Shown: positions 3,603 to 13,952 of the stretch, piece after piece
Numbering within the stretch: the stretch's first letter is position 1
Layout: every line of letters begins with the position of its first letter
Assembly: GCF_036347055.1 (NCBI RefSeq)
Contig: NZ_CP108882.1
Coordinates: 2,121,001 to 2,185,000 of the forward strand
Source: Streptomyces sp. NBC_00820
GTDB lineage: Bacteria > Actinomycetota > Actinomycetes > Streptomycetales > Streptomycetaceae
Length of the DNA: 64,000 bases
Direction of reading: 5' to 3'
The notes under the pieces: model-generated
Told to the model about the DNA's origin: nothing
Database searches by the model: none
The model's input: only the letters and a program-made list of their open reading frames with translations
Position numbers and translations under genes: made by a program

Positions 3603-4181
3603 CTACAGATGGGGCACGATCGCCGGGGCCAGATCCTGGATCGTCCGGCCGTGACCGGGTTCGCCGATGGCCTGCATGCTCCAGCCGTCGCCCTGCCGGG
3701 TCACCTTCGCCATGATCTGAGCCGTGGCCGAGCCGCCACCGGTGAGGGTGTAGCGGGCCAGTTCCTGGCTGGTGCTCACGTCGACCAGCCGGCAGAACGC
3801 GTTCTCCACCTCGGCGAACGTCTGTCCGCTGAAGGAGTTCACCGTGAACACGATCTGGTCGATGTGCGCCGGGACGCGCTGGAGGTCGACCATGATCGAC
3901 TCGTCGTCACCACCCCGGCCGGCGCCGCCGACCAGATTGTCGCCGGTGTGACGGACGGACTCGTCGACGCTCACGAGATGGCGGAACCAGACGACGTCCA
4001 CCACTTCCTTGCCGGTGAAGAGGACGGCCGAGGCATCCAGGTCGACCTCGCGGGTGCGGCTTCCGAAGAGGCCGCGGCGCTGGGCCGCCTTCCATCCCAG
4101 GCCCATCCGGACCGCGGTCAGCGTGCCACCGCCGGACTTCTGGAGACTGACGGCCTGCCCCTTGGACAAGTTGACGCTCAC
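3603..4181 (-). CDS. terD: TerD-family stress protein
   Basis: A 192-residue single TerD domain, the usual length of the family. The GTG start at 4181 follows GAGGAGGGG at a good distance; the protein opens VSVNLSKGQAVSLQK, as TerD proteins do. The Ca2+-binding segment GGDDESIMVDL (near residues 96-106) is intact. TerD proteins are cytoplasmic or membrane-peripheral Ca2+-binding proteins tied to tellurite, phage and colicin resistance phenotypes and to Ca2+-dependent stress responses. It lies divergent to the hydrolase-caspase-MoxR-vWA operon, whose last protein ends in a very similar TerD domain, so I read it as a partner of that system. Its last residues (TIQDLAPAIVPHL) match the fused copy (TFQDLMPAILPLL). 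Confidence 0.9.
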   Translation of the reverse strand: MSVNLSKGQAVSLQKSGGGTLTAVRMGLGWKAAQRRGLFGSRTREVDLDASAVLFTGKEVVDVVWFRHLVSVDESVRHTGDNLVGGAGRGGDDESIMVDLQRVPAHIDQIVFTVNSFSGQTFAEVENAFCRLVDVSTSQELARYTLTGGGSATAQIMAKVTRQGDGWSMQAIGEPGHGRTIQDLAPAIVPHL

Positions 4182-4501
4182 GCGGGTCCCCTCCTCTGCC
4201 GTGTCGTGGGCTCGGCACCCCGACATCCGGCGATCTGTGCGCTTTGCGTTCACCTTATGAGCGAGGGCCCCGGACATCACCATCCGGTGGAAGTCTTTGT
4301 GGCAAGTCTGCGACACAGCCACCCACGCCCGGCCCCCTGGTCGGGTCACCGACCGGCCCGCCGCCCCGAGCGCACGGCATGCCCCCGTCGAAAGCGCTGA
4401 ACGGGCAGCCCCGGCACCTCTCCGCCTCTACGCTTCTGTCGGCGATCCGATCAGGAGCAGTCGCACGGTTGTGGGTGCGACACGGGGGCGACGGGGGTGC
4501 G
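4182..4501. promoter_or_regulatory. Divergent promoter region with inverted repeat
   Basis: This 320-base region separates TerD from the conflict operon and must carry both promoters. I see a perfect 7-bp inverted repeat GTCGCAC (4460-4466) / GTGCGAC (4475-4481) with an 8-base loop, ending 20 bases before the operon ATG. It could be an operator or a leader hairpin that limits access to the first ribosome site. On the minus side TAAGGT is a possible -10 for TerD without a good -35. No coding potential was seen. Confidence 0.45.
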
Positions 4502-5488
4502 ATGAGACCTCGGCTGGTGTTCGTGCACGGGATCGGCGGTCCACGGGACGCCGCGGCGGAACTGGCCGCCTGGACTGGCGCGCTGGCGGCGGGAATGCGC
4601 GCCGCGGGTCATTCCGCGGTGGCCGACGGTCTGTCGAACGGCGACGTCGACTGCCGCTTCGTCCACTACGCCGATCTCTTCCGGCCCGCGCAGGCCCAGG
4701 GCTCCGCGGTCGGAGTCGAGGACGAGGACTCCGCGCGGCTGCTCCTCGAACTGCTCGACGAGGTTCTCGCCGGCCTCGCCGGGTCGCTCCCGGACACGTC
4801 TGGTTCCGAGCACGACGCGCAGGTGACCCGGGTCCTCTCCCACGCGCGCCTGCAGACCGCCCCGCAGGCACAGGAACAGGGCACGATGGCCGGGGCGCGC
4901 CGTGCCCTGAACGCGGCCACCACCGTGCTGTCCCTGCGGATGTTCCGTGGCCTGGGGCAGTGGACCGCCCCGAAACTCATGGTGCGCGACCTGGGTCAAG
5001 TGGCCCGTTACGTAGCCCGCTGTGAGGCCGACGAGTCGGGGACCACCCTCGACGCCCGCATCCGGAACCGGGTGGCGCGGGAGCTGGGTTCCTCCGCCAC
5101 GGTCCTGGTCGCCCACTCCCTGGGCAGTGTCGTCTCCTGGGAGACCCTGCACGAACACGCCCCGCGGATCCGGCTCCTGGTGACACTGGGCTCGCCGCTC
5201 GGCATGCGGACGGTCGTGTGGCCGAGGCTGGTGCCCCGGCCGCAGCGCACTCCCGAAGGGGTGGACGCGTGGCTGAACTTCTTCGACCACGACGACCCGG
5301 TCGCCGTACGCCCCCGGCTGGAGGAGGATTTCGGCCCCAACAGCGCGCGGGTGCTGCCGGTCAGCAGGAGGGTCGACTCCGTGGGCTTCTGGGTCCACCC
5401 GGCCAGGCTGTACCTGGAGCAGGCCGCCGTGGCCGGCCCGGTCGCCGAGGCGCTGCGCGCCGCCGCGGCCACCGCAGAAGAGCGATGA
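4502..5488 (+). CDS. Alpha/beta-hydrolase (lipase-like) of conflict operon
   Basis: A 328-residue alpha/beta hydrolase. After the ATG the chain begins with the beta-strand and oxyanion turn FVHGIGG (residues 7-13). The nucleophile elbow is AHSLGS with Ser206, and a plausible catalytic His299 sits in GFWVHP; an acidic residue is available in FFDHDDPVAV. The fold resembles PGAP1/DUF676-like serine esterases, which act on lipids or acyl esters. A Gln-rich, variable insert precedes the elbow. No signal peptide or membrane segment is evident, so it is cytoplasmic. ATGA overlap (5485-5488) couples it to the caspase gene. In this setting I infer an effector or regulator whose activity is released by the MoxR-vWA machinery; the substrate is unknown. 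Confidence 0.8.
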   Translation: MRPRLVFVHGIGGPRDAAAELAAWTGALAAGMRAAGHSAVADGLSNGDVDCRFVHYADLFRPAQAQGSAVGVEDEDSARLLLELLDEVLAGLAGSLPDTSGSEHDAQVTRVLSHARLQTAPQAQEQGTMAGARRALNAATTVLSLRMFRGLGQWTAPKLMVRDLGQVARYVARCEADESGTTLDARIRNRVARELGSSATVLVAHSLGSVVSWETLHEHAPRIRLLVTLGSPLGMRTVVWPRLVPRPQRTPEGVDAWLNFFDHDDPVAVRPRLEEDFGPNSARVLPVSRRVDSVGFWVHPARLYLEQAAVAGPVAEALRAAAATAEER

Positions 5489-7563
5489 CCCCGGCCTCGC
5501 TGCCCCCACCGCGCCACCTGCTGGTGATCGGGGCCCAGTGCGCCGCCATGGGATACCTCGACCGGCTGACGGAATCGGCCACGCTGCTGCACGGCGTACT
5601 GTCCGAGCCGAGCCTCGGAGGCTGTGTTCCGGGCCTGCCCGACGGCCGTTCCCTGCTGCTGGGGGAGGGCCTGACGGCCGAAAGCGTCGTGGGGGACGTG
5701 CGCGCCGCGTACCGCTTCGCGGGCGAGCGCGGAGCCGTCCTCGTACTGGCCCTGCTCGGACACGGCTTCGTCCCGGGGACCACGAGTTCGCTCTACTACA
5801 TGGCCGGCGACTCCCGGCCCGAGGAGCGCGACCACGCCGTCGAGGTGGGCCCGCTGCTGCGGGACGCGGCCGACCGGGACGGCGTGCACGGGGTCGTCTG
5901 CGTCGTGGACACCTGCCACGCCGGCGGTGCGATGCCCGATTCCCGGGAGCTGGCGGCCGGAGTGCGGGGCGGCAGCGCGCGGCTGGCGGTGCTGACCTCC
6001 TGCGGGGCCGCCCAGCCGGCCATCGATCTCAGACTCTCCCGGGAGCTCGCCGATCTCCTCCAGCGGGGCGATGCCGAGGGCGGCCGCTTCATCGACATCG
6101 GTACGGCCGCCCGCGCGCTGCGCAGCCGGGTGCTCGGCCAGAACGTCGGGTTCCAGGACTGGGACGGTCACCCGTTCGCGCGGGAGCCGTTGTGGCTCGT
6201 GCCCAACACCCGGCATCCCGAGCACTCCACGCCGCGTTCCGGCGCCCTCGGGCCGCGTGCGCGGGAGGAGCTCGCCGCCGCCCTCGCCGCCCTGGAGCCG
6301 CCGATCGCCCACGGCCGGCTGCCCGCCTCGGTCGACGACGCCACGGACCTGCTCGGCATCCTGACCGCCCGGCCCGCCGACCCCATGACCCAACGGGCCG
6401 TGCGTGCCGTGAAAGGTGTCGTCATCGCCTTCCGCACCATGGCCCTGCTGTCCGACTGGCTCGGCGGCGAGGTCACCACCGCACATCTGCGGCGGGCGCT
6501 CGGTGCCGTGCTCACGGCCGAGGCGCAGCGTCCGACGGCAGTGCCCCGGCCCACCCTCGCGGAGGCCGTCGACCATTTCGTCCACGAGTTCCCGGTCACC
6601 GATCCGGACTGTCTGCGCCGGCTCACCCGGTTCGTGGTCCTGCTGGGCACGGAGGCCGGGCAGGACCCCGCCGATCCCGTCGTCAAACGCTGGGCCCGGT
6701 CCGTCGACGCCTCCGTCGCGCTCAACGACGCGCTCGACTTCGCGCGTGAGCTGCGCGACGACCGGCTGCTCAGCCTGGTGGTCAGCCTGCACGCGTCGCT
6801 GACCGGGGACTGGCCCGACTCGGTGGACGCGTGGCTGCTCCAGGACGGTGCCGTGGTCGGCCACGAACAGTACGGGACACCCGATGCCGACCAGGCGCGG
6901 GTGGAGGAGGTGCTGGACGAGGCGGTGCTCTGGGCGGAGGAGGAGGCCCGGGAACGGGGCTTGCGGCTGCACCGGATCGACGTCGCGCTGCCCGCCGCCA
7001 GACTGCTGGACTGGCATCCCGAGGAGACCGGCCTGGGCGTGTGGCTGGGCCACCAGTTCGCCGTGGTCCTCCACTGGAGCGGGCGGCTCGCTCCCACCCG
7101 CCCGCTGCGACGGCTGCACAACGTGGTGAAGGACCGCTGGGAACGCATGCTGGGCTGCACCACCGGCGTACCCGTGGACTGGCTCGACCGGCACACCGTA
7201 CGCGACCCCGAACTGCTGCGCGGCGAACTGCGCAAGGGCCGGTACGCCAGGGGCATCGGGCTGCTGTACCACCCGGCAGGCGACGAGGCGCTGATGGAGA
7301 CGCTGCTGTCCTACACGCCGGTGTTCTTCTGGCCTCGGCGCGACAGTCACCATGCCGCCGGGCGGGACTGTCTCGACCAGTACTGGCCGACCATGCCCAT
7401 GGGCCTGACCCACGCCTACCGGCGGCGCTGGCTCGGCGACGACGGGGAGCCGGTCGCCGACCTGCGGGCCGTGTGGGACAGCGGGGAGTGGCTGGCGTTC
7501 TGCCAGAGCATCTCCCAGCGGGTGCCGCCGGCGGAAACCTGTCCCGGCAAGGAGGAGACATGA
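5485..7563 (+). CDS. Caspase-like protease with VMAP-type C-terminal region
   Basis: A 692-residue protein. The N-terminal ~230 residues form a caspase-like (C14/metacaspase) domain: a hydrophobic strand ends in LLGHG (catalytic His93) and VVDTCHAGGAM carries catalytic Cys144, followed by a LTSCGAAQPA strand. A helical middle segment (about 270-470) is followed by a C-terminal region with the pattern RLHRIDVALPAARLLDW ... GLGVWLGHQFAVVLHW ... LMETLLSYTPVFFWPR, which I recognise as like the VMAP-C region of vWA-MoxR-associated proteins. In that family the N-terminal domain is the effector and the rest connects it to the MoxR and vWA partners. Overlaps of four bases at both ends couple it to its neighbours. 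Predicted action: regulated cleavage of host or partner proteins, possibly causing dormancy or death after a trigger. Confidence 0.82.
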   Translation: MTPASLPPPRHLLVIGAQCAAMGYLDRLTESATLLHGVLSEPSLGGCVPGLPDGRSLLLGEGLTAESVVGDVRAAYRFAGERGAVLVLALLGHGFVPGTTSSLYYMAGDSRPEERDHAVEVGPLLRDAADRDGVHGVVCVVDTCHAGGAMPDSRELAAGVRGGSARLAVLTSCGAAQPAIDLRLSRELADLLQRGDAEGGRFIDIGTAARALRSRVLGQNVGFQDWDGHPFAREPLWLVPNTRHPEHSTPRSGALGPRAREELAAALAALEPPIAHGRLPASVDDATDLLGILTARPADPMTQRAVRAVKGVVIAFRTMALLSDWLGGEVTTAHLRRALGAVLTAEAQRPTAVPRPTLAEAVDHFVHEFPVTDPDCLRRLTRFVVLLGTEAGQDPADPVVKRWARSVDASVALNDALDFARELRDDRLLSLVVSLHASLTGDWPDSVDAWLLQDGAVVGHEQYGTPDADQARVEEVLDEAVLWAEEEARERGLRLHRIDVALPAARLLDWHPEETGLGVWLGHQFAVVLHWSGRLAPTRPLRRLHNVVKDRWERMLGCTTGVPVDWLDRHTVRDPELLRGELRKGRYARGIGLLYHPAGDEALMETLLSYTPVFFWPRRDSHHAAGRDCLDQYWPTMPMGLTHAYRRRWLGDDGEPVADLRAVWDSGEWLAFCQSISQRVPPAETCPGKEET

Positions 7564-8507
7564 CCTGGAACACGTTCTACACCGGTACCGGGGAACCCCG
7601 TCCGCACACCTGGCTGCCTCCCGCGCCGCCCTGGCGGACGTTCCCGCACCGGCCGTCCGGGGATGTCTTCCAGCCTCCCGAAGGACTGACCGACGCCGTC
7701 AACGCCGCGCTGTGCCTGCGGCGTCCGCTGCTCATCACCGGCCCGCCGGGCTCCGGCAAGTCGACGGTGATCGAGCAGGTGGCCCTCGAACTGGGCCTCG
7801 GGGCGGTGCTGCGCTGGCAGATCACCTCCCGCAGCACCCTGGCCGACGCGCTCTACCGCTACGACGCCCTGGGCCGGATCCACGCCCACCGGCTCGCGCA
7901 GGACCGTCACGACGCCCCTGGCTCGCCGGACGACATCGCCGCCTTCCTGCAGCTGGGCCCGCTGGGTACGGCCCTGCTGCCCACCCGCAGGCCTCGCGCC
8001 CTGCTCATCGACGAGATCGACAAGGCCGATCTCGACCTTCCCGGTGACCTCCTCGACGTGCTGGAACGCGGCGAGTACACCGTCGTCGAACTGCTGCGCG
8101 AGAATCGGAGGGCGGCCGAGGTGCGCACCTGGGAACCGGAGGTCGTGCACGGCATCGAGAACGGCCGGGTCCGCTGCACGGAGTTCCCGTTCATCGTCAT
8201 GACGAGCAACGGTGACCAGGAGCTGTCGCCGGCCTTCCTGCGCCGCTGCGTCCGCTACACCATGCCTGTTCCCACGGTGTCGCTGATGCAGGCCGTGGTG
8301 CGCCGGCATCTGGGCCTGGAGGTCCGTGAGCAGAGCCCCGAGGCGGATCTCGTCCGGGAGTTCGTCGAGCGCGTGGCGGCGGGCGAGACGGTCGCGGTCG
8401 ACCAGTTGCTGAGCACCATCCATCTCCTCAACGGCACCGCGGTGACCGATGCCGCCGAACGGGAGCGTGTGAAACGGCTGCTGATGAAGGACCTCTCACG
8501 TGCCTGA
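7560..8507 (+). CDS. MoxR-type AAA+ ATPase
   Basis: A 315-residue AAA+ ATPase. Walker A is GPPGSGKST (residues 61-69), Walker B LLIDEID (about 148-154), sensor 1 MTSNGDQ, and SPAFLRRC supplies the arginine finger region. The arrangement, including the helix-2 insert, is that of MoxR ATPases, which act as chaperone motors with von Willebrand A (MIDAS) partners. The start ATG sits in an ATGA overlap with the caspase gene, preceded by AAGGAGGAG, so the long in-frame upstream extension is not used. It overlaps the next gene by eight bases. In the ternary system it should remodel the vWA or VMAP protein with ATP hydrolysis, controlling effector release. Confidence 0.9.
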   Translation: MTWNTFYTGTGEPRPHTWLPPAPPWRTFPHRPSGDVFQPPEGLTDAVNAALCLRRPLLITGPPGSGKSTVIEQVALELGLGAVLRWQITSRSTLADALYRYDALGRIHAHRLAQDRHDAPGSPDDIAAFLQLGPLGTALLPTRRPRALLIDEIDKADLDLPGDLLDVLERGEYTVVELLRENRRAAEVRTWEPEVVHGIENGRVRCTEFPFIVMTSNGDQELSPAFLRRCVRYTMPVPTVSLMQAVVRRHLGLEVREQSPEADLVREFVERVAAGETVAVDQLLSTIHLLNGTAVTDAAERERVKRLLMKDLSRA

Positions 8508-10836
8508 TCCCGGGTCCGCGGGAGCGCCGGGCGACGCGCTGGCGAGCGTCGTCCGGGCGGTGCTGCGCGCGGATCCCGGGCGGGACGCGCTGGGGCTCGC
8601 GGAACTCCTGTGGCTCGCCGGGCTCGGCTCGCCCCCGCCCGCGGCGGCCCCCGAAGCAGCTCGGAGCTTCCCCGGCGCGCTCGCACCCCCGTGGAAGGCA
8701 CCCGGCGCCGACACGGGCCCCGCCGCGCTCGCGCCCGCACCGGCGGAACCCGACGCGAGCGACGAGACGCCCGACGCCGAGGACGAGGGGGTCCCCGAAC
8801 GGCCCGTCGCGGTCCCCGGCCACCAGCGGCTCCTGAGGGAACGTGACCTGTCGCGCGCGCTTCGTCCGTTCAGGCGGAGGTGGCCGCACGGCCGCCTCCG
8901 CCACCTGGACGTCGACTCCACCGTGGCGGAGTACGGCCGTACCGGCGAGCTCTCGCCCGTGTTCTCGCCCGCGCCGGAGCGCTGGTTCGATCTGACGCTG
9001 GCCGTGGACCGCAGTACCTCCATGTCCGTCTGGCAGGAGACGGCCGACGAGCTGGGCCGCCTGCTGGCCTCCCTCAACGCCTTTCGTACGATCCGGATGC
9101 TCACGTTCGACGCCGACCTGCCCGCTCCCGCGCTGCGTCACCACGTCGCACGTCCCGCGCACGGTGCCCAGCTCTCCGGTCCGGCGCGGCCCGGGCCGCG
9201 CGGGCTCGTCCTCGTCTTCTCGGACTGCACGGCCCGCGCGTGGCGGAGCGGGCACCTCTGGGAGCGGCTGCACCAGTGGGGGCGCAGGAGCGTGACCACC
9301 CTCGTCAACCCGCTTCCCACGCGCATCTGGCGGCACGTGGGCGTGGACCTCTCCGCGGTCCGGGTCACGTCTCCGGGGGTACCGGGAGCCCCGAACGGCG
9401 GGCTGCGCTTCCGGGCTCCGCCCCGGGCGGGGGGACTGCCGGTACCGACCGTCACCCTGTCGGCGCAGCCGCTCGCGCGCTGGGCACACACACTGATGCG
9501 GTGCAGTCCGGTCGGGTGCGACGCGCTGCTGGTGCCCGCGTCCGGCGGACGGGCCGTGGAGCGGTGGGAGGCGCCCGCCGAGGCGGACGGTGTGCGGGAG
9601 GACGGGGACGCGCTGGCGAAGGCCTTCCACAACCGGGCCTCGGCCGCGGCGGCGCGGCTGGCCGTGCTGTGCTCGCCCTTTCCGGAGTTCGGTATTCCGC
9701 TGCTGCGGCTGATCGCGGAGGAGCTCGTACCCCGTGCCACGGAGTCCGACCTGGCGGAGTTCCTCGTCGGCGGGCCCGTCGTCCCCGGCAAGCGGCCCCC
9801 GGCCGGCGACGCGGAATCGGCGTGGGTGCGGTACCGGCCGGCGGCCCGGGAGCACTTCATCTCCCTGCTCAGTTCACGCGAGGCGTGGCAGCTCTACGAC
9901 GTGCTGACCCGGGCCGTGGCCCGCGGTCCCGTGCTGCGGACGCGTCCGCGGGGTACCGGGCGGCTGCCGGGCGGGAGTTCCTGGGCGGCCCTGGCGGGCG
10001 GGGCAGCGCTGGCGGAGGCGCCGGCACAGGTGCTGAAGCTGCTGGGGATCGTGCTGGCTCAGGAGCAGGCCGAGGCGCCGGCCGAGAACCTGGCCGGCCA
10101 GGCCGCGGAGAGCGACGGGGCCGAGGGCCCGGTCGACGACGCGGTCGAAGGTCGGGCCGAAGGCGCAAACCCCGCCGAGGGTGCGGCGGAGGCGGGCCCT
10201 ACCGGTGAAGCCGACGAGGAGCGTTTGACCGAGGACAGGTACGTGACGGTCTCAGACGGGAGGTCCGTCACCCTGCGCCGGGGGGAGACGATCAGCCTGA
10301 CGCAGGCCGGGATCAGTCCCCGGAGCGCCATCCGCATCGAGACGAGCTGGACCTGCCGTCGCCGTCGTGGTCTGTTCCGGAACCGCAGCGAAGAAATCGA
10401 CATGGACGTCTCCGCGGTGCTCTTCAGCGAGAGGCAGCCGGTGGACGTGGTGTTCTTCCGTCACCTCCTCAGCGACGACGGGTCCGTCCGGCACAGCGGA
10501 GACAGTCTCGACTCCTCCCGCGCCGGCACCGGCACCGAGTCGCTCCTCGTCGACCTTCGCCGCGTCCCCGTGCACGTCGACGCCATCGTCATCACGCTGA
10601 ACTCCTTCACCGGCCAGTCGCTCGCCGTGGTCGAGAGCGTGACCCTCGGTCTCGTCGATCTGGATCGAGAACACGAGACGGCCGTCTATCCCCTGGCCGG
10701 AGGCGGCACACACACCGCGTGCATCCTGGCCAGACTCAGCCGCGCGGGAACCGATTGGTGCTTGACGGCCCTGGGGATCCCGGCGAGCGGCCGCACGTTC
10801 CAGGACCTGATGCCGGCGATACTGCCCCTCCTCTAG
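8500..10836 (+). CDS. vWA protein fused to C-terminal TerD domain (SAV_2336-like)
   Basis: A 778-residue protein beginning at GTG inside the end of the MoxR gene. The N-terminal ~110 residues are acidic and Pro/Ala-rich after a short helical segment, as in SAV_2336-type proteins. A vWA domain follows with the MIDAS motif DRSTS at Asp170 and the LVFSDC strand. A second helical section is followed by an Ala/Glu/Gly-rich linker (about 520-575). The last 200 residues are a complete TerD domain, strikingly similar to the free TerD at 3603-4181. In the fused copy the Ca2+ site GGDDES has become GTGTES, so metal binding may be reduced. The protein is the likely adaptor between the MoxR motor and the caspase effector. 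Confidence 0.85.
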   Translation: MPDPGSAGAPGDALASVVRAVLRADPGRDALGLAELLWLAGLGSPPPAAAPEAARSFPGALAPPWKAPGADTGPAALAPAPAEPDASDETPDAEDEGVPERPVAVPGHQRLLRERDLSRALRPFRRRWPHGRLRHLDVDSTVAEYGRTGELSPVFSPAPERWFDLTLAVDRSTSMSVWQETADELGRLLASLNAFRTIRMLTFDADLPAPALRHHVARPAHGAQLSGPARPGPRGLVLVFSDCTARAWRSGHLWERLHQWGRRSVTTLVNPLPTRIWRHVGVDLSAVRVTSPGVPGAPNGGLRFRAPPRAGGLPVPTVTLSAQPLARWAHTLMRCSPVGCDALLVPASGGRAVERWEAPAEADGVREDGDALAKAFHNRASAAAARLAVLCSPFPEFGIPLLRLIAEELVPRATESDLAEFLVGGPVVPGKRPPAGDAESAWVRYRPAAREHFISLLSSREAWQLYDVLTRAVARGPVLRTRPRGTGRLPGGSSWAALAGGAALAEAPAQVLKLLGIVLAQEQAEAPAENLAGQAAESDGAEGPVDDAVEGRAEGANPAEGAAEAGPTGEADEERLTEDRYVTVSDGRSVTLRRGETISLTQAGISPRSAIRIETSWTCRRRRGLFRNRSEEIDMDVSAVLFSERQPVDVVFFRHLLSDDGSVRHSGDSLDSSRAGTGTESLLVDLRRVPVHVDAIVITLNSFTGQSLAVVESVTLGLVDLDREHETAVYPLAGGGTHTACILARLSRAGTDWCLTALGIPASGRTFQDLMPAILPLL

Positions 10837-10885: not shown

Positions 10886-13033
10886 CTACGCGAGGCCTGC
10901 CTCCCGCATCTGCCGCAGTTCCTTCTTCATCTCGGAGACCTCGTCGCGCAGCCGGGCCGCGATCTCGAACTGCAGCTCGGCGGCGGCGGCGCGCATGCGC
11001 TCCGTCATCTCCTCGATCTGCTCGGCGAGTTCGGCCGCCGGACGGTCCGTGGGCACCGCGCCGGCCGCCTTGCCCTTGGCGGACTTGCCGGCCTTCGTGC
11101 CCTTGGCCGCCTTGTCGCCGAGTGACGGAACGGGAGACTTGGCCCCCTTGCCGTCCTTCAGCTTGCGGTATCCGGAGCCCAGCAGTTGTTCGGTGTCGAT
11201 CTCCTCGCGGGCGATCTGCGCGACGATGTCGTTGATCTTCTTGCGCAGCGGCTGCGGGTCGATGCCCTTGGCCTTGTTGTACGCGACCTGCTTCTCCCGG
11301 CGCCGGTTGGTCTCGTCGATGGCCTTCTCCATCGCCGGGGTGATCTTGTCGGCGTACATGTGGACCTGGCCGGAGACATTGCGCGCCGCGCGGCCGATGG
11401 TCTGGATCAGCGAGGTGCCGGAGCGCAGGAAACCCTCCTTGTCGGCGTCCAGGATGGCCACCAGGGACACCTCGGGCAGGTCGAGGCCCTCGCGCAGCAG
11501 GTTGATGCCGACCAGGACGTCGAACTCGCCGGAGCGCAGCTCGCGCAGCAGTTCCACACGGCGCAGGGTGTCGACGTCGCTGTGCAGATAGCGCACCTGG
11601 ATGCCGAGTTCCAGGAAGTAGTCGGTGAGGTCCTCGGCCATCTTCTTGGTGAGCGTGGTGACCAGGACGCGCTCGTCCTTCTCGGTGCGCTTGCGGATCT
11701 CGTGCACCAGGTCGTCGATCTGGCCCTCGGTGGGCTTGACCACGACCTCCGGGTCGATCAGGCCCGTCGGGCGGATGATCTGCTCCACGACGCCGTCACC
11801 GCGCGACAGTTCGTAGGCGCCCGGGGTCGCCGACAGGTAGACGGTCTGCCCGGTGCGCTCCTGGAACTCCTCCCACTTCAGGGGCCGGTTGTCCAGCGCG
11901 GAGGGCAGCCGGAAGCCGTGGTCGACCAGGGTGCGCTTGCGGGAGGCGTCGCCCTCGTACATGGCACCGATCTGCGGGACGGTGACGTGCGACTCGTCGA
12001 TGACGAGCAGGAAGTCGTCCGGGAAGTAGTCGAGCAGGGTGTTGGGCGGGGAGCCGGGCGCGCGGCCGTCGAAGTGCATCGAGTAGTTCTCGACACCGGA
12101 GCAGCTGCCGATCTGGCGGAGCATCTCGATGTCGTACGTGGTGCGCATCCGCAGGCGCTGGGCCTCCAGGAGCTTGCCCTGCTTCTCCAGCTCGGTCAGG
12201 CGCTCGACCATCTCCTTCTCGATGTCGTTGACGGCCCGCTCCAGGCGCTCGGGGCCGGCGACGTAGTGAGAGGCGGGGAAGACGTACAGCTGCTGGTCGT
12301 CGCTGATGATCTCGCCGGTGAGCGGGTGGAGCGTGGACAGCGCCTCGATCTCGTCGCCGAACATCTCGATGCGGACGGCCAGCTCCTCGTAGACCGGGAA
12401 GATCTCGATGGTGTCGCCGCGGACCCGGAAGGTGCCCCGGGTGAAGGCCGTGTCGTTGCGCGTGTACTGGATGTCGACGAAGCGGCGCAGCAGGTCGTCG
12501 CGGTCGATCTCGTCGCCGACCCGCAGGGGGACCATGCGGTCCACGTACTCCTGCGGGGTGCCGAGGCCGTAGATGCAGGACACCGAGGCGACCACCACGA
12601 CGTCACGGCGGGTGAGCAGCGAGTTCGTCGCCGAGTGGCGCAGGCGCTCGACCTCCTCGTTGATCGAGGAGTCCTTCTCGATGTAGGTGTCCGACTGCGG
12701 GACGTACGCCTCGGGCTGGTAGTAGTCGTAGTACGAGACGAAGTACTCGACCGCGTTGTTCGGCAGGAGCTCGCGGAACTCGTTGGCCAGCTGGGCGGCC
12801 AGCGTCTTGTTCGGCGCCATCACCAGGGTGGGGCGCTGGAGCTTCTCGATCATCCACGCGGTGGTGGCGGACTTGCCGGTGCCGGTCGCGCCCAGCAGGA
12901 CGACGTCCTTCTCACCGGCCTCGATGCGCTTGGCCAGGTCGGCGATGGCCGCCGGCTGGTCGCCGCTGGGCTGGTAGGAGCTGACGACCTCGAAAGGCGC
13001 CACCGTGCGTTCGATGTGGGAAACGGGCCGCAT
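10886..13033 (-). CDS. uvrB: UvrABC system protein B (excinuclease helicase subunit)
   Basis: A 715-residue UvrB of normal length. The chosen ATG at 13033 gives [16 protein letters not shown]; the frame extends further upstream but runs into the MHYT gene and has no conservation. Helicase motif I is GATGTGKS, the beta-hairpin region reads [12 protein letters not shown], motif II is VIDESH, motif [11 protein letters not shown], and the C-terminal UVR domain ([18 protein letters not shown]) binds UvrC/UvrA. UvrB takes damaged DNA from UvrA, verifies the lesion and recruits UvrC for incision. A Lys/Ala/Gly-rich linker before the UVR motif is longer than in Gram-negatives. No LexA-like operator was noticed upstream. 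Confidence 0.97.
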
Positions 13034-13073
13034 GGGATCCACCGTACGACCCCGCACTGACAACCGGCCCGGG

Positions 13074-13952
13074 TCAGCGGTTCTGCGGGGTGCGGGAGGC
13101 CAGGGAGCCGGACCGGCGGAGCGGCCCGCGGCCGGCGTCGAGGGCGGGGTGACGGTCCTGGTGGTAGGCGACGGCGGCGGCGGGAACACCCGGCTTGTCC
13201 TCGGCCGGGGTCCGGGGCGGCCGGCCCGTGATCACCAGCGGGTCGAACACCATGACGACTCCGGCGAGGATCAGGAAGGCCAGTGGTCCGATCAGCATCG
13301 GCGCGAGCACGGCGGTCGGTGAGCCGGCCGTGGTGGTTCCCGGGGTGCCGTGCAGGTGGACGGTGAGGGCGGCCATACCGGTGTAGTGCATGCCGCTGAC
13401 GGCCAGGCCCATGCCCAGGCTCGCTCCGATGCTCCACACGAAGCCGCGGACGTGTCCGGCTGCCCAGAGGGCGCTGGTGGCCGCCACGACGGCTATGACG
13501 ACGGAGGCGCCCACGGTGACCGTGTTGTACGCGAACCGCCCGTCGAAGTGCATGCTCGCCATGCCGAGGTAGTGCATCGAGGCGATGCCCAGACCGGTGA
13601 TCGTGCCGCCGGTGAAGAGGGGGGTGCCGGTGGCGCCCCGGTAGCCGACGATGAATATCCCCACGCCCACCATGACGATGGCCAGGCCGAGGCTCGCGTA
13701 GGTCATCGGTTCGTCGTAGTGGATGGGCGCCTTCTGGATGCTGAAGCCCATCATGGCGACGAAGTGCATGGTCCAGATGCCGGAGCCGATCGCGGCCGAG
13801 CCGAGCGCCAGCCACGCGGGCCGCCAGCGGTCCGTGACCAGCAGGGACCGGGTGGTGCAGCGCAGGCCGAGGGCGCCTCCGAGGCAGGCCATGAGAAAGC
13901 CGACCAGAGGGGTGACCACCCCGTAGCTGAATCCGTCGACCGTGCCTTGCAT
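13074..13952 (-). CDS. MHYT-domain integral membrane sensor
   Basis: A 292-residue membrane protein with three MHYT-type motifs, TMHFVAM, SMHYLGM and GMHYTGM, at the outer ends of helices; seven transmembrane segments are visible in the first 230 residues. The Met/His pairs are proposed to bind copper and sense O2, CO or NO. Unlike many relatives it has no GGDEF, EAL or kinase output domain; the C-terminal ~60 residues are a polar cytoplasmic tail rich in Pro and Arg. The ATG at 13952 starts [11 protein letters not shown]; long upstream in-frame sequence is antisense to the GDPD and ogt genes and is not coding. It is divergent from the GDPD gene. Confidence 0.9.

Follow-up and report, generated by a model that had tools for sequence, protein, structure and literature searches.

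What kind of system is encoded by the four consecutive genes that lie on the + strand at 4502-10836 of a 64,000-nucleotide window (the whole stretch of Streptomyces sp. NBC_00820 DNA analyzed here), between a resident terD and a gene that we take, from its protein sequence, to be uvrB, and from where did its von Willebrand factor A (vWA) component obtain a C-terminal TerD domain? As the preliminary description of this DNA proposed, the operon is almost certainly a MoxR-vWA-VMAP ternary conflict system, of the caspase type, inserted between uvrB and terD. Its TerD tail looks to have been captured from the terD of the insertion site and to have degenerated afterward, judging from sequence comparison. 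The overlaps of 4, 4, and 8 bases that had been described between the consecutive genes were confirmed.

Systems of this kind were reported by Kaur et al. (2020; PMC7159879), in whose available text VMAP, MoxR, and vWA genes stand in a fixed order, the vWA tails are variable and include TerD, and a caspase on VMAP always stands beside an alpha/beta-hydrolase. The operon agrees with those systems in the order VMAP-MoxR-vWA, the caspase on VMAP, the neighboring alpha/beta-hydrolase, and the variable vWA tail, as well as in having TerD among the tail domains, a Streptomyces host, and several paralogous systems per genome; the genome of the window (8.1 Mb, a single contig, with the window at 2,121,001-2,185,000) has two further VMAP-C systems and three VMAP-C matches in all. 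The differences are that arm recombination is proposed in that paper as the source of variety, with neighbor capture unmentioned in the available part of its text, whereas the tail of the present operon is traced to the uvrB-linked terD, and that the preferred chromosomal position given there is near 33%, whereas the operon is located approximately 26% from one chromosome end. Two identical complete systems in Streptomyces cyaneochromogenes MK-45 (L137 and L145) lie approximately 11-13 kb from either chromosome end, which is far from the one-third position stated for such systems in the same text. The systems of Thiohalocapsa PB-PSB1 that are diversified by a diversity-generating retroelement (DGR) (PMC10907252) likewise comprise MoxR, a vWA protein with a variable C-terminal module, and VMAP with a peptidase; in those systems, however, a C-type lectin mutated by the DGR forms the tail and a trypsin serves as the peptidase, as opposed to one degenerate host-derived TerD and a caspase in the present operon. 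In the available text on those other VMAP systems, the vWA tail is proposed to be the sensor and the VMAP peptidase the output. The operon of the window therefore extends the caspase-type VMAP systems already described by one well-resolved member.

The VMAP-M2 region of the caspase-VMAP protein is present in 23/23 of its relatives. A check against the VMAP-C profile, which had been suggested in the preliminary description, gave a weak similarity (PF20028, 36.4 bits versus a cut-off of 27) that was not reported by hmmscan, and the alignment by hhalign of 22 relatives with 15 other VMAP-C domains gave 93.4% with an E-value of 2.5e-7. In the structure model of this protein, the part matched to solved structures is limited to residues 5-247 and is predicted to take the caspase superfamily fold with a His/Cys dyad; the catalytic residues of the caspase are kept in 45/45 relatives. 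The alpha/beta-hydrolase fold of the first protein is supported by sub-threshold Pfam matches and by candidate triad residues that are invariant (25/25), and the earlier term "lipase-like" goes beyond this evidence, as it is a hydrolase without an assigned substrate. The MoxR protein matches AAA_5 with 36.7 bits (cut-off 22), while the bpMoxR and MadB profiles score below their cut-offs; the Asp-Glu pair of Walker B is conserved in 47/47 sequences and the Lys of Walker A in 46/47, the remaining one being a gap. The predicted vWA component matches the SAV_2336 N-terminal domain (284 bits versus a cut-off of 200), and in its DxSxS-like site the Asp is found in 47/47 sequences and the serines in only 33/47 and 27/47. 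The single-sequence structure model of the vWA-TerD protein is of low confidence (predicted local distance difference test score of 37.8).

The four genes also occur together in other genomes, so that neither of the observations named in the preliminary description as refuting (a lack of VMAP-C similarity and a lack of co-occurrence) was made. The VMAP protein was matched in 25/295 Streptomyces genomes (E ≤ 1e-20), and 22 of the 24 other loci that were fetched contain a full-length VMAP, together with the hydrolase in 22/22, MoxR in 21/22, and vWA in 22/22; the gene order is kept in 21/22, and the remaining one is without MoxR. At L065 and L066, a shorter caspase protein (457 and 454 amino acids, respectively) comes after the hydrolase, and 18 kb of sequence gave no match to MoxR or vWA; the caspase protein of L065 has TPR repeats at its end and a VMAP-M2 stub. 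An alignment-based scan of named genomes, which used two caspase motifs as patterns and thus favors caspase-VMAPs, gave 48 loci (46 from Streptomyces, 1 from Amycolatopsis, and 1 from Kibdelosporangium); this set has genomes in common with the set of 24 Streptomyces loci, and the same scan of the named genomes with the single VMAP protein as the query gave no loci. All four genes are in order in 45/48 loci, the exceptions being L115 and L144, both at a contig end, and L108, which has no MoxR. L108 (the same locus as L049) is also without the start of the vWA gene, by deletion or by an assembly fault. With start codons chosen by script, 4-base overlaps were counted between hydrolase and VMAP in 44/48 loci and between VMAP and MoxR in 40/46, and the 8-base overlap between MoxR and vWA in 32/45. 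The hydrolase precedes the caspase-VMAP in 48/48 loci, which were selected by a caspase-VMAP profile. Because the hydrolase stands beside every caspase-VMAP, both in these loci and in the available text of PMC7159879, the presence of two hydrolytic proteins is normal for these systems, and the earlier view of this pairing as an unusual version of the system is rejected.

The C-terminal module of the vWA component is exchangeable. The 46 tails fall into 11 clusters, and 13 changes of tail label are found on a 47-row tree of MoxR and VMAP. That a TerD domain on the vWA subunit is unusual, as the preliminary description held, is true of its frequency (2/46 tails) but not of its occurrence as such, since TerD is listed among the tail domains in the available text of PMC7159879. 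On the same tree, six Streptomyces systems (L103-L107 and L114) form the sister group of the TerD pair (100/100); they have the same four genes but differ in carrying a tail of the TIR cluster, with TIR_2 seen by Pfam in 4/6, and in their flanks, which, as far as fetched, gave no match to uvrB or terD. A relative of the tail is present in its own flanks in only 3/46 loci (the window, L102, and L136), and at L136 this relative appears to be the remainder of the tail's own gene, which a run of N interrupts. Neighbor capture is therefore particular to this operon, and the idea that tails are generally captured locally is rejected for this set.

Relatives of the resident terD were found in 119/121 Streptomyces genomes, and uvrB adjoins terD with a gap of 87-275 bp in 29/29 other Streptomyces loci (the readable ones, best-scoring of 118 others). 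The window has a gap of 6,704 bp and G259, the genome of the nearest relative, one of 6,516 bp, in each case with the operon between the two genes on the opposite strand. Most of the gaps between uvrB and terD that were displayed for other species have a TGTTGCA(N)nCACAAA-like stretch, possibly the terD promoter, upstream of terD. The window (4182-4330) and G259 retain this stretch next to terD, and the operon would therefore have entered between uvrB and this element. A sigma-70-type promoter was sought in the gap between terD and the operon (4182-4501), and no match was found. The vWA TerD tail shares 49% identity with the resident terD, no more than about 32% with any further TerD domain of the genome, and 54-56% with the best-matching solo orthologues from other species. 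When 61 TerD domains were placed in a tree, both tails grouped with 31 uvrB-linked genes (100/98), separately from 20 second copies and from 8 paralogues of the same genome. For this tree, 20/21 second copies were fetched and 11 own-paralogue loci were taken, of which L007, L012, and L017 were dropped (no match or a short match), and L004/L006 and L011/L013 give identical rows. The motif RRG[LF]F with its 7-residue spacing is shared by 31/31 uvrB-linked genes and 2/2 tails and is found in 0/20 second copies. By the approximately unbiased (AU) test, a position of the tails away from the uvrB-linked clade is not rejected (p 0.283), and neither is a clade that joins them to the two solo genes resident at the site (p 0.377); both tails are long branches. 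Membership in the uvrB-linked terD subfamily is thus well supported, and the exact donor is not.

It is possible, with a likelihood clearly short of even, that the tail was acquired elsewhere from a terD of the same subfamily and that the system came to the uvrB-terD site by chance or through that homology. The modest identities given above and the donor left unfixed by the AU tests fit such a history, as does the opposite orientation of the tail and the resident terD, which simple homologous integration would not directly give; however, the TerD tail occurs, among the 46, only in the two systems at the uvrB-terD site, and the scarcity of flank relatives, one of which is an apparent broken gene, also speaks against it. 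A search of 121 Streptomyces genomes (E ≤ 1e-50) gave no other TerD of this subfamily except solo-type copies (62-79% identity), and 12 of 118 genomes of the class have a match at E ≤ 1e-25, for which frame lengths were inspected. The capture of a VMAP-system tail from a neighboring gene was not found in the available text of the open-licence PubMed Central (PMC) literature, subscription papers being outside the search.

The motifs GDN and GDDE are present in 31/31 uvrB-linked genes and 20/20 second copies and in 0/2 tails, and DASA is changed to DVSA in both tails. The solved TerD structures 3ibz and 2kxt, which were found by sequence, both have GDN and GDDE. The acidic motifs expected of a calcium-binding TerD are gone from 2/2 tails. 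Between the window and Streptomyces NRRL S-455, the rate of nonsynonymous substitution (dN) is 0.344 (0.270-0.432) for the tail, with a ratio to the synonymous rate (dN/dS) of 0.47 (0.30-0.67); the corresponding values are 0.104 (0.071-0.137) and 0.19 (0.11-0.29) for the resident terD and 0.041 and 0.15 for uvrB. The dN of the tail is 3.3 times that of the resident terD, and its estimated dN/dS, being below 1, shows weaker constraint and not positive selection. The TerD of K. pneumoniae is reported to bind calcium (Pan et al. 2011).

The reading that we tentatively favor, at a little less than even likelihood for the whole statement of system identity and mechanism, makes the tail a bait, a sensor, or a dominant-negative copy, with the caspase and the hydrolase as the output. 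The degenerate tail, a non-enzymatic copy of a core host protein from the adjoining terD, would make contact with a product of an invader or with a host partner of TerD that has been disturbed; MoxR and vWA, as an ATPase couple, would turn that contact into remodeling of the VMAP protein; and the caspase so released, with its partner alpha/beta-hydrolase, would damage or kill the infected hyphal compartment. The direction of signaling, the substrates, the trigger, the target, and any role in defense are what we infer. Such a stripped version of a core host protein, standing beside two enzymes whose catalytic residues do not vary, fits a bait, sensor, or dominant-negative role of the putatively captured domain better than that of an enzyme. 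Several points weigh against the favored reading. The VMAP-C similarity is weak, and hmmscan gives no VMAP-C for the caspase-VMAP protein or its relatives; the Pfam scan of the operon proteins gave no vWA and no caspase family match; the AU tests reject neither of the other placements of the tails; relaxed constraint explains the dN/dS of the tail as well as an arms race does; and the role of GDN and GDDE as calcium ligands is our presumption. Furthermore, the available text of Kaur et al. (PMC7159879) gives the opposite direction, in which VMAP senses and the peptidase frees the vWA tail as the effector, and no experiments on caspase-type VMAP systems were found in the accessible text of the open-licence PMC literature.

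In that published proposal, which we consider rather unlikely for this operon, VMAP-M/C detects the invader and MoxR-vWA determines the threshold; cleavage of the vWA protein by the caspase liberates the TerD tail as the effector, which would bind a nucleotide-like ligand or disturb calcium. The listing of TerD as a ligand-binding tail domain in the available text of PMC7159879 is consistent with this, and so is the linker between the vWA core and the tail (residues ~480-586), which is of low complexity and evolves fast (dN 0.51 between the two genomes); on the other hand, a tail that has lost the acidic motifs most conserved in its family and shows no enzyme-like feature would need a different mode of harm, and the catalytic residues of the caspase and the hydrolase are intact in every relative checked. 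It is quite improbable that the operon serves the development, stress response, or calcium signaling of hyphae instead of defense against invaders, although PADLOC gave the operon no match except generic ATPase matches to MoxR, and a Streptomyces terD gene is reported to act in calcium homeostasis (Daigle et al. 2015). A gene of the sodium/calcium exchanger family (PF01699, 1080-2180, - strand), which lies near and beyond terD, points the same way and would fit a calcium link of the resident TerD. Returning to the favored role of the tail, we regard as unlikely the particular form in which it is an integrated decoy, a copy of a nearly universal Streptomyces TerD protein that was captured from the terD at this site and deprived of its original activity, so that a protein with which an invader targets the host TerD would bind the copy and fire the MoxR-caspase-hydrolase machine.

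The features of the locus are collected in the table below; elsewhere in the window, an HrpB-type helicase gene (PF08482, 42354-45233, + strand) is ordinary.

Table 1. Positions in the window of the operon, its protein regions, and the bordering genes
Feature	Position	Strand	Remarks
Alpha/beta-hydrolase, 328 amino acids	4502-5488	+	Pfam matches below cut-off; candidate triad Ser206, Asp262 or Asp265, His299
Caspase-VMAP protein, 692 amino acids	5485-7563	+	
Caspase-like domain (predicted), approximately residues 5-247	5497-6225	+	His93 and Cys144
VMAP-M2 middle region, residues 200-417	6082-6735	+	PF19965, E 2e-45
VMAP-C region	6823-7479	+	PF20028, 36.4 bits (cut-off 27); hhalign 93.4%
MoxR-type AAA+ ATPase, 315 amino acids	7560-8507	+	AAA_5 above cut-off
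vWA component with C-terminal TerD tail, 778 amino acids	8500-10836	+	SAV_2336 N-terminal domain; TerD
TerD tail of the vWA protein, residues 587-778	10258-10833	+	Apparently from the uvrB-linked terD subfamily; GDN and GDDE gone
Resident stand-alone terD	3603-4181	-	Likely start 4181; core gene; normal neighbor uvrB
uvrB (presumed)	10886-13189	-	Longest open reading frame, true start possibly further in; other border of the insertion site
Divergent intergenic region, terD/operon	4182-4501		

What this operon adds is an exchangeable tail whose origin can be traced from its donor subfamily, its site, its orientation, and its loss of motifs. The role and the source of the variable tails, a long-open question, become testable on the resident TerD and its degenerate copy, and if phages act on TerD, the operon is a ready place to look. 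If the decoy reading is true, the tail would be a bacterial counterpart of the integrated domains in plant immune receptors.
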